Source: Clostridia bacterium (lineage in GTDB: Bacteria > Bacillota > Clostridia > Oscillospirales > CAG-382). Taken from it: 64,000 bases of DNA. The notes beneath the pieces are model-generated. The model did no database searches. It saw nothing but the letters and a program-made list of their open reading frames with translations, and was not told where the DNA came from. This document shows positions 3,173 through 36,850 of this stretch, piece by piece. Every line of letters begins with the position of its first letter. The stretch's first letter is position 1. A program made the translations under genes and the position numbers. The stretch covers positions 1-64,000 of the forward strand of contig JAFSCS010000035.1 of the NCBI GenBank assembly GCA_017436675.1, given 5' to 3'.

Positions 3173-4606
3173 TCAGACGTCGTCATCGTATTTTGGCTCT
3201 ACCTTATAGAAATCAAGCACGGGAAGAAGCACGAGTGCGGTGAGTCCTGCGTTAAAGCCGCCGTTATAGAGGACGAAGCCACCGTGCATTCCTGCGGTCG
3301 AGGTACATATTATTGCACTCAAAAAGCCGGCAAGGACCCCGATTTTCCAACCGTATTTTCCTGCGAATGGGCAAAGTCCCGTTGCAAACGCGAGTCCGTT
3401 GATATAGCCTTGTGTTGAGAGAGTCCACGGAACGTCCATCCCGCCGATGCCGCATATTACACATACGACACAGAGCAGCAAGACGTAACCGAGAGCGATC
3501 GGTGCGACGGTGCGCGGTTGCTGACCATCGGCAGAAAAGGTCAAGGCGGCAAAAACGACTCCGACCGTCGGGCCTGTGAATCCGACCCCCGTCGGGAGAA
3601 ACGGAAATATCTCGGGAAGAACAAATATCACGTTGAGATACGCGAGGATGCAAAATCCATAGACACCGATATTGATCAAGCAATCGGGCATTCCGTATTT
3701 ATCGAGAAAATCCGTTCCATAGCCCGTACATTTCAACAGCTCCTTATATCCGCGGAAGCTTCTGTTGTTCAGAAAATAGCCTGTCAAGATCGAGATCAGA
3801 AAGAGCAAGATGAAGAACACGTTCATAAACGTGCGATATCCATAGGGCATTGCGTAATACTCGGGGTTGACTATCGGCACGACTGACGGTGCTTCTATTC
3901 CGAGTGAGCGGTACATAAACGAATAGACGAAGATACCCATTATTCCGATCGCAAGTCCTGCTTTATACAGATTGAAGCCACGGTGCATTGCGGTCGTTCC
4001 CGGTATCAATGCGGGTACGGCAAAGCCTGCGGCTATTCCGAACAGCACGGCAAGGATGACGCCGAGGATCGTCGCACGCGGGTTTGACGGATCAAAGCTA
4101 TCTCCGAGCGTATAGCGGAACACAAAGTCCGAAATGAACGGGCCGAGTGCGGTCGCAAACAAGGCGACGTGCACCTTTTCCGAAAAGGGATTTTTCGTCG
4201 CAAGGCAATAGATCAAAACGCCGAGAAGCGGAGTCCACATATTCAGAAAATTGAGTCCGTAGAAGCCGTGGGCTATTACGAGCATATATGCGGCAAAGGT
4301 GGTGGCATTGGATCTCACCTTGCTGAAAAATATCACCGCATTGGCGATAAGTCCGCAGATCGCAGTATTCAAAAATGCGCTTCCGAGACCGCCGAGTGCG
4401 AAATAGTCGGTGACGAGCTTTGACGGTGAGGTCAAGATGCGCCAAAGGTCGCCGAGGATATCGGTATCGTTTGCGAACCATACTGCGAAGGGGACGGCGG
4501 CAAAAAAGCAGAGTGTCAGGAAAAGTGTATAGAAGCCGATTATTTTATCGGCGTTTTTTGAGTGGTGCTCAACTGAATCGTAAAACGAGATATGTGGGGT
4601 CTTCAT
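3173..4606 (-). CDS. DUF1576 family polytopic membrane protein
   Basis: 477 aa, almost entirely hydrophobic, with about a dozen predicted membrane helices and many Gly/Pro-rich turns (FATGLCPFAGKYGWKIGVL, STAGMHGGFVLYNGGFNAGLT). The repeated Gly-Gly-Phe-Asn-Ala-Gly loops and overall plan fit the DUF1576 family of Firmicutes, whose substrate is unknown; a transport role is plausible but unproven. It has its own promoter (see 4635-4663) and terminator, so it is monocistronic. Confidence 0.8.
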   Translation of the reverse strand: MKTPHISFYDSVEHHSKNADKIIGFYTLFLTLCFFAAVPFAVWFANDTDILGDLWRILTSPSKLVTDYFALGGLGSAFLNTAICGLIANAVIFFSKVRSNATTFAAYMLVIAHGFYGLNFLNMWTPLLGVLIYCLATKNPFSEKVHVALFATALGPFISDFVFRYTLGDSFDPSNPRATILGVILAVLFGIAAGFAVPALIPGTTAMHRGFNLYKAGLAIGIMGIFVYSFMYRSLGIEAPSVVPIVNPEYYAMPYGYRTFMNVFFILLFLISILTGYFLNNRSFRGYKELLKCTGYGTDFLDKYGMPDCLINIGVYGFCILAYLNVIFVLPEIFPFLPTGVGFTGPTVGVVFAALTFSADGQQPRTVAPIALGYVLLLCVVCVICGIGGMDVPWTLSTQGYINGLAFATGLCPFAGKYGWKIGVLAGFLSAIICTSTAGMHGGFVLYNGGFNAGLTALVLLPVLDFYKVEPKYDDDV

Positions 4607-35418: not shown

Positions 35419-36171
35419 TTGGCATCGATATATTTGAGTCCTTCCGTTCAAGAATACAACGTCTATTACGACGGGAGCGGAAGCGAAGAATATTATATGA
35501 ATCTTATTGCCGACGCTATGGAGCCATATTTGACGGCATCGGGGATCACATTTACTCGGAATTCGCCCGATATGACGGTCAACCAAGTTGTCGAGCAATC
35601 CAACATGGGCAATTACGGGCTTCATCTTGCACTGCATTCCAACGCCTCACCCGAATCGCTTTCGGGACGGCTCACAGGCAGCGACGTATATTATTACACG
35701 TTTTCCGACGTCAGCAAGCGCGCTGCGATTATTTTTTCAAATGCGCTCAAGGATATTTATCCCGATCCGAACAAGGTGCAGATACGTCCGAATTCGACGT
35801 TTGCGGAATTGAGGCGAACACGATCCCCCGCGATACTCGTTGAGCTTGCATATCACGACAATCCGAGCGACGCGGAGTGGATAAAGAATAACATTGGGCA
35901 GATAGCGAGGACGCTCGTTATTGCTACGACGGAGTTTTTGGGTATTCCCTTTGTCGAGCCCGAGCCGATACGCACCGGTGTTGTTCGCACACAGGGTGGA
36001 AGGCTCAACGTCAGACAGCTTCCGTCGATGAGCGGAACGGTCATAGGGCAGATACCAAACGGATCGAGCGTGCTTGTGCTCGGAAAGACAGGAAATTGGT
36101 ACATCGTCAGCTACAACTCACTTGAAGGGTATTCGTTTGCTGACTACATATACGTTGACTATAATCAATAA
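35419..36171 (+). CDS. N-acetylmuramoyl-L-alanine amidase (Amidase_3) with SH3 domain
   Basis: 250 aa from a TTG start with AAGGAGC 8 nt upstream. Residues 1-170 match zinc amidases of the Amidase_3 group: NYGLHLALHSNASPE (zinc His), GSDVYYYTFSDVSKRAA and SPAILVELAYHDNPSDAEWI (catalytic Glu). Residues 185-250 form a bacterial SH3 domain (GRLNVRQLPSMSGTVIGQIP). It has no signal peptide, so it may act in the mother cell, on lysis, or be exported another way. Cleaves the lactyl-alanine bond of peptidoglycan. Confidence 0.88.
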   Translation: MASIYLSPSVQEYNVYYDGSGSEEYYMNLIADAMEPYLTASGITFTRNSPDMTVNQVVEQSNMGNYGLHLALHSNASPESLSGRLTGSDVYYYTFSDVSKRAAIIFSNALKDIYPDPNKVQIRPNSTFAELRRTRSPAILVELAYHDNPSDAEWIKNNIGQIARTLVIATTEFLGIPFVEPEPIRTGVVRTQGGRLNVRQLPSMSGTVIGQIPNGSSVLVLGKTGNWYIVSYNSLEGYSFADYIYVDYNQ

Positions 36172-36173
36172 CA

Positions 36174-36560
36174 AAAAAAGACGAGGTATAGCGTGATGTC
36201 CTTAACGGACAAATCACGCTAACTAAGTTTGCCCTTCGGGCAAGTGAAGTTATCTTCGATAGTGAAGTTCACTATGTGAGTGAAGTTTCGCCTGACGGCG
36301 AAGTGATGGGCAAACTTAACTTCACTGCGAGCCTTGGCGAGCAACTTCACTGTGCCGGATGTCCTGCATCTGCACAACTTCACCGGCAAAAAAAGAGCAT
36401 ACACATAAGGTTTACTCCTTGCGTGTGTGCTCTTTCTGCTTGTTATAAGGGTTTGGGCATAGCCCATTTGCGTTTGACCGGTCAAATGTGATGCTCGCAT
36501 TTAGCGGTATTTGTCAAACTATCCGCTAAGAACCGCACCCTATTTTCCCTCGTCTTTTTT
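36174..36560. repeat. Micro-hairpin array 2 with AGTGAAGTT linkers, bounded by terminator-like arms
   Basis: This 387-bp element lies between convergent genes and contains no ORF I trust. The outermost arms AAAAAAGACGAGG (36174-36186) and CCTCGTCTTTTTT (36548-36560) are perfect complements. Inside: a hairpin 36189-36221, then AGTGAAGTT linkers at 36243-36251, 36261-36269 and 36279-36287 separated by palindromes ATC-TTC-GAT, CAC-TAT-GTG and TCGCC/GGCGA. Then the linker flips to AACTTCACT at 36318-36326, 36343-36351 and 36376-36384 with hairpins between. AAGTTTGCCC (36225-36234) pairs at distance with GGGCAAACTT (36308-36317). The right part holds a long hairpin 36392-36435, a palindrome TTTGACCGGTCAAA at 36473-36486 and a stem 36501-36529. 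Confidence 0.85.
36392..36435. terminator. Long hairpin within array 2
   Basis: AAAGAGCATACAC pairs with GTGTGTGCTCTTT (one wobble), and AAGG/CCTT pair inside. Located in the gap between the amidase and divIC stops, it may terminate one or both transcripts. Confidence 0.55.
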
Positions 36561-36568
36561 ATTCATTG

Positions 36569-36850
36569 TCAATCTGCGAGATCGTTATAGAAAATGATCT
36601 CATCGGGATCACGGTAGCCCAAGGTCTCACGGGCTATCTTTTCGATATTCTCGACCGTCATCGGTGTTTCGATACGGATATTGAGCTTTTCGATATTATC
36701 GCCGAGCTCTGCTATCTCGATCTCAAGCTGCTGCTTTTGGTCGATCAATGAATCGAGCTGGGTACGAAGCTTTATCGCGGAAGAAATAAAGAAAACTATT
36801 ACCGCTAATACTGCTATTTTTACCAAGACGTTTGTTTTTGGTGTATTCAT
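36569..36850 (-). CDS. divIC: Septum formation initiator, DivIC/FtsB type
   Basis: 93 aa. A short cytoplasmic N-terminus, one membrane helix (VKIAVLAVIVFFISSAIKL), then an extracytoplasmic coiled coil (LDSLIDQKQQLEIEIAELGDNIEKL) and the terminal ARETLGYRDPDEIIFY typical of DivIC/FtsB. It acts in the divisome with FtsL and DivIB. Its place after yabQ equals the Bacillus order. Overlaps yabQ by one base. Confidence 0.92.
   Translation of the reverse strand: MNTPKTNVLVKIAVLAVIVFFISSAIKLRTQLDSLIDQKQQLEIEIAELGDNIEKLNIRIETPMTVENIEKIARETLGYRDPDEIIFYNDLAD

Follow-up and report, generated by a model that had tools for sequence, protein, structure and literature searches.

What occupies the loop of the terminator that separates the convergent amidase and divIC genes of this bacterium, and how did it come to be there? 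In the window (the whole stretch of 64,000 nucleotides that was analysed), the gene for an N-acetylmuramoyl-L-alanine amidase with an SH3 domain (35419–36171, + strand) faces that for a DivIC-type septum formation initiator (36569–36850, − strand), and between them two arms of a host terminator, AAAAAAGACGAGG (36174–36186) and CCTCGTCTTTTTT (36548–36560), form an inverted repeat. The space within the arms is taken up by a single copy of a non-coding, gene-free element of ~350 bp that is built of stacked hairpins (36190–36541). This type of element is mobile and jumps into terminator loops in many gut bacteria.

Architecture of the element at the amidase/divIC locus

The element starts at end A, AGCGTGATGTCCTTAACGGACAA (36190–36212, + strand), which the alignment of ends marks as a presumed attP half-site, and the end-A palindrome TAGCGTGATGTCCTTAACGGACAAATCACGCTA (36189–36221) forms the start of the inner block. 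The hairpin ladder follows (36221–36384, delimited by sequence, covariation and a spacer test), with exact AGTGAAGTT linkers in its left half (36243, 36261 and 36279, + strand) and the reverse complement AACTTCACT in its right half (36318 and 36343, − strand), where a partial third linker, AACTTCACC, is also found (36376–36384, − strand). The hairpins between these linkers are ATCTTCGAT, CACTATGTG, TCGCCTGACGGCGA, GCGAGCCTTGGCGAGC and GTGCCGG..CTGCAC. The right part of the element (36392–36490) consists of a terminator-like hairpin, AAAGAGCATACACA..TGTGTGCTCTTT (36392–36435), a component of the chassis common to copies with differing ladders (L088, L183 and others), and two more chassis hairpins, GGGTTTGGGCATAGCCCA and GCGTTTGACCGGTCAAATGTGATGC (36449–36490), after which the inner block terminates in TATCCGCTAAGAACCGCACCC. 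End B, TATCCGCTAAGAACCGCACCCT (36519–36541, − strand), is the other presumed attP half-site on the evidence of the end alignment and the junction table. The presumed crossover dinucleotide, AT, identified from the junction table and a permutation test, lies at 36188–36189 and is repeated at 36542–36543.

The preliminary description had proposed a linker array with the consensus AGTGA(A/T)(A/G)TT, and this was borne out, with 11 matches to AGTGAWRTT in the window against 2.15 expected and none of 100 shuffles reaching 11. The region of the element also folds well beyond shuffled sequence on both strands (z about −9.1). The array had further been read as filling the loop of one bidirectional terminator; the arms do belong to one host terminator, 361 nt apart, but the ladder makes up only the left part of what lies between them. 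The 13-bp arms themselves are external to the element, and their sequence changes at every insertion.

Copies, ends and insertion sites

Copies of the element occur at about 20 loci in the source genome (1.5 Mb searched, 54% complete). A pattern search of this genome returned 48 linker-spacer-linker matches, whose arrays are distributed across a dozen contigs, and 25 occurrences of the end motif CTTARCGGAGAA, while the reversed control of each search returned none. Alignment of the flanks resolved terminal inverted repeats of ~23 bp, AGCGTGTTnTCCTTAaCGGAGAA and (reading inward) TGGGTGATGTTCTTAGCGGAGAA, outside of which each locus has a different inverted repeat. As in MITEs, the copies are multiple, non-coding and nearly identical, are bounded by terminal inverted repeats and lie at loci unrelated to one another. 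Across the order, a stricter 22-nt end was present in 22 of 394 genomes and 17 of 169 genera. A scan of viral contigs gave one match only.

Arms that form a perfect inverted repeat of 7 nt or more (median 12) flank 17 of the 21 two-ended copies, compared with 4 of 420 mismatched pairs in which the left flank of one copy was set against the right flank of another; matching arms are absent from the other four copies. At least four T's lie directly after or near the right arm in 15 of the 17 armed copies (judged by eye), which is typical of intrinsic terminators. When the element is read as A-GCGTG...CACCC-N, the junction dinucleotide, usually TT, is repeated in 17 of 21 copies, against 9.0 by permutation (0 of 20,000 permutations). 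Two of the two-ended elements, L197 and L201, have left and right flanks that do not match as arms, and may have arisen when copies from different loci recombined.

Sites lacking the element were found as intact terminators. Where one genome (G026) carries a 350-bp element, a congener (G017) has, between the same flanks, the uninterrupted AAAACCCCGAGA-TGTTT-TCTCGGGGTTTG; in G229 two paralogous gene copies end in an uninterrupted terminator, CCACACTC-AGTC-GAGTGTGG or the same with -GGTC-; and at the sites that correspond to two further copies, the terminators of relatives are short and intact. The amidase and divIC genes were not adjacent in any of 39 relatives fetched by an amidase scan of genome contigs (amidase identity ≤63%), and an empty counterpart of the window's own site was not found among them. 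Of the two routes that the preliminary description had offered, insertion into terminator loops or growth within them, it is insertion that the arm counts and the empty sites uphold; growth is not supported, as linkers are fixed per family and the empty sites hold no partial arrays. Compared as sequences, the copies and their empty sites establish mobility, insertion into terminator loops and a shared dinucleotide, and the alignments described below do the same for conservation of the hairpins.

Arrays were also seen in compound arrangements. At L094 (1440–1960, G000:C20) a AGTGAAGTT ladder is followed by a TCGATAT ladder, a composite insertion within the single arm pair AAAATATCCCC, and at L152 (2074–2690, G017:C23) a AGTGATATT ladder lies within a AGTGAAGTT array region, which suggests one element nested in another.

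Ladder families and Gut-1 RNA

The linkers found with these ends are AGTGAAGTT, AGTGATATT, TCGATAT, GCGATAT, TGAATTG, GATGAAATC and GTGAAAT, i.e. at least six besides AGTGAAGTT, several of them in the same chassis, and in every case the reverse complement occupies the second half. A genome-wide check of linker identity, as the preliminary description had suggested, found 80 exact linkers among the 99 counted in AGTGAAGTT arrays of the source genome. Linkers are thus near-constant within these arrays, but they are fixed per family: the same AGTGAAGTT recurs in the arrays of several genera, and other families use other linkers. Internal homogenisation of arrays, as proposed in the preliminary description, is not supported and becomes superfluous when each linker is a family trait common to genomes.

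Conservation of the hairpins is evident both within spacers and between ladders. In four linker families taken in correct register (the TGAATTG family was left out), self-complementarity from both ends was seen in 70–77% of distinct spacers and in 5–6% of shuffles. In 21 aligned AGTGAAGTT ladders, hairpins 2–4 pair in 97–98% of cells, and changes on both sides of a pair were counted in 33 cells against 7.7 in shuffles, helix 1 being disregarded as misregistered by one column. The idea that the ladder re-closes the terminator gained no support from partition-function folding, in which the arms pair with a probability of about 0.95 whether the insert is native or shuffled, so that the test does not discriminate; the native insert itself is about 30–60 kcal/mol more stable than shuffles. 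We infer that the hairpin core may keep insertion harmless, e.g. by supplying new terminators.

In a sister genus the majority of ladders lack the mobile ends, and some ladders without such ends are common to congeners. In the source genome, L034 (G000:C14) holds two end-less ladders (1498–1673 and 4097–4275), each after a long variable hairpin and directly 5′ of a gene with a ribosome-binding site, whereas the usual site of a ladder is 3′. Because most sister-genus ladders are without ends and these two lie directly upstream of genes, ladder and chassis are separable modules.

The half-ladder also proved to be a full-length match to a catalogued RNA, Gut-1 (RF01706), a family listed in 2010 as a noncoding RNA from human-gut environmental sequence only (Weinberg et al., PMC2864571). 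The ladder at the amidase/divIC locus (36220–36291, + strand) scores 45.3 bits (E = 9e-8), under the 50-bit gathering cut-off; a half-ladder of the window's first array (154–225) scores 60.8 bits; and among other copies, which span at least five linker types, the top-scoring half-ladders reach 40.9–55.7 bits. That first array (1–260) belongs to the AGTGATATT family and ends in the palindrome GCCCAAGTGTCCTTAAGAACACTTGGGC, and its left hairpin is also seen at a contig end in C23 (L087). The Gut-1 layout of three hairpins parted by GUGAAAU-like linkers is present in the alignments, with covariation. What Rfam calls Gut-1 RNA thus appears to be half a ladder: the match to the published family (PMC2864571) runs end to end, and the difference is that here the matching sequence makes up one half of an element that is mobile, has attachment-site ends and lies in terminators. 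A full-text literature search found no other paper naming RF01706.

A candidate mover and its rivals

The element encodes nothing, and candidates for an autonomous partner with matching ends were found in three larger elements that carry a large serine recombinase (L259, L324 and L329). A variant left end, AGCGTGTTGTCCTTAACGGAGAAATAC..., is present in 17 of 394 genomes, where it usually breaks the assembly. In G127 a 4.97-kb element starts with a left end of this type and finishes at TACTCCGTTAAGAACAACGGGC, is enclosed by perfect 16-bp arms, AACAAAACACAGTCTG and CAGACTGTGTTTTGTT, and has as its last gene, at the right end, an N-terminally truncated large serine recombinase. The recombinase of G364 is intact (579 aa), with Resolvase, Recombinase, Zn ribbon and DUF4368 domains, and its best solved relative is TnpX; its gene is followed by the right end and then by CTTGCGCGGTTTT, while the left end lies on another contig, preceded by the 13-nt complementary arm AAAACCGCGCAAG. 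The ends of ladder and recombinase elements are identical at 22 of 23 and 21 of 23 positions, compared with 15 for the best of 39 random 300-bp windows, and the recombinase elements likewise lie within split terminators. Recombinase and variant left end occur together in six genomes against 0.47 expected (P = 1e-6). Alongside the truncated recombinase, the G127 element (L259 586–5560, G127:C4) encodes YitT, a small protein of the multidrug-export type and a pyruvate kinase that is complete.

We consider it likely that the ladder elements, small and non-autonomous, are mobilised in trans by multi-targeting large serine recombinases for which terminator palindromes serve as attB; the recombinase of the larger elements is probably the enzyme responsible. 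The ends would represent the half-sites P and P′ of the attachment site, and the mover would be a TnpX-type, DUF4368-containing multi-targeting recombinase encoded by the larger integrative elements, whose ends are nearly those of the ladder elements. After excision as a circle, the joined ends would recombine at the midpoint of an intrinsic terminator of the bidirectional kind, the dyad acting as attB; a 2-bp core would be exchanged, and the terminator would be left split into two arms around the element with the dinucleotide shared by both junctions. Both the circular intermediate and the action in trans of this particular enzyme are presumed. The 2-bp identical core expected of a large-serine-recombinase substrate is found at both junctions in 17 of 21 copies against 9.0. 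In large-serine-recombinase systems it is enough that a core matches that of its partner, so that the difference in dinucleotide, usually TT in ladder elements and AA in recombinase elements, is compatible with a shared enzyme.

The main weakness of this model is the weak co-occurrence of the ladder-type 22-mer with the recombinase, which was detected in 2 of 22 genomes with this end (P = 0.12). The recombinase was not detected in the 54%-complete source genome, where only its type of left end was found, in a broken copy at the edge of a contig. The freely varying sequence of the arms, unusual for a recombinase attB, also counts against the model, as do the four of 21 copies without matching arms and the difference in dinucleotide between ladder and recombinase elements.

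Among known systems, integrative mobilizable elements of the Tn4451/TnpX type and multi-targeting recombinases resemble the present case in their near-identical ends, 2-bp junction core, TnpX-like DUF4368 recombinase and scattered targets (PMC5704250, PMC10083194). The Tn4451 enzyme is described as recombining between 2-bp identical sequences with low target specificity (PMC5704250), and multi-targeting large serine recombinases as commonly having DUF4368, with one aligned set of 21 targets showing a TT core and T- and A-enriched ends (PMC10083194). A terminator, with its A-tract, dyad and T-tract, is a natural dyad-symmetric site of the kind of target described there. The ladder element differs from the Tn4451/TnpX type in having no genes and a length of only ~350 bp, and the parts of these two papers that we consulted make no mention of terminator loops as preferred attB. 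With MITEs it has in common that it is short, non-coding and multi-copy, with terminal inverted repeats common to an autonomous element; it differs in its presumed mobiliser, a large serine recombinase and not a DDE transposase, and in a shared 2-bp core in place of the typical target duplication. In the literature searched, no paper was found that pairs MITE-like elements with an enzyme of this class. Readings of the arrays as CRISPR, attC or REP/BIME were dropped on anatomy, the spacers being hairpins, not unique spacers, and the ends of a double-stranded, 2-bp-core kind.

The possibility that the elements are MITEs of the transposon type, mobilised by a palindrome-preferring DDE transposase with a 2-bp duplication (IS30-like) or by a hairpin-targeting enzyme of the IS1182/IS1272 kind, was judged unlikely. 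The IS30 outline does fit the ~23-bp terminal inverted repeats, the 2-nt repeat and the palindromic targets, but an IS30 transposase was found in only 4 of 23 carrier genomes, with none of the element's ends near those genes. IS1272, of the IS1182 family, is reported to target inverted repeats (PMC5678879), and these, as here, have no fixed sequence; it replaces the repeat, however, whereas here both arms remain, and the IS1182-type domain DUF772 was found in none of eight carrier genomes tested. The matching ends sit instead on serine-recombinase elements. Less probable still is mobilisation by an XerA-like tyrosine recombinase (L204) in the manner of integrons: in G191 a gene of this kind is situated 0.9 kb inward of a recombinase-type end, but its co-occurrence with the ends is not above background, and the homologues inspected lack the ends and are flanked by palindromes of their own, AACATAAT..ATTATGTT, which makes this a very improbable mover. 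The XerA-like family (L208–L235) is common in the order, is usually followed by AACATAAT-nnnn-ATTATGTT palindromes and located near contig ends, and seems to represent a mobile or inverting system of its own.

A resident RNA, either a Gut-1-type sRNA or a 3′ UTR structure, could alternatively have grown by duplication inside a terminator loop and been kept as RNA. The hairpins covary, the 2010 paper rated Gut-1 as certain to be an RNA (PMC2864571), and the ladders without mobile ends that congeners have in common would agree with residence. Against this, near-identical elements with the same ends lie at different loci within unrelated arms, and the empty sites, being intact terminators, already refute this reading for copies with ends; overall we regard it as quite unlikely, though somewhat less so than the tyrosine recombinase. 

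Returning to the large-serine-recombinase model, a broader proposal is made tentatively, at slightly less than even confidence: that these gene-free hairpin ladders would constitute a new class of minimal mobile elements that parasitises multi-targeting large serine recombinases, with terminators as safe-harbour attB. The ladder core, modular in that linker families are exchanged while the chassis stays constant, may then itself act as a structured nucleic acid, e.g. as an RNA that maintains termination or assists transfer.

For an orphan RNA family listed since 2010, these results provide a concrete identity, and the question of what Gut-1 RNAs are becomes testable. For a multi-targeting large serine recombinase, which belongs to a class of enzymes used as genome-integration tools, terminator loops would form a natural safe harbour, and the preference for terminators may give a rule for how multi-targeting large serine recombinases choose their targets.
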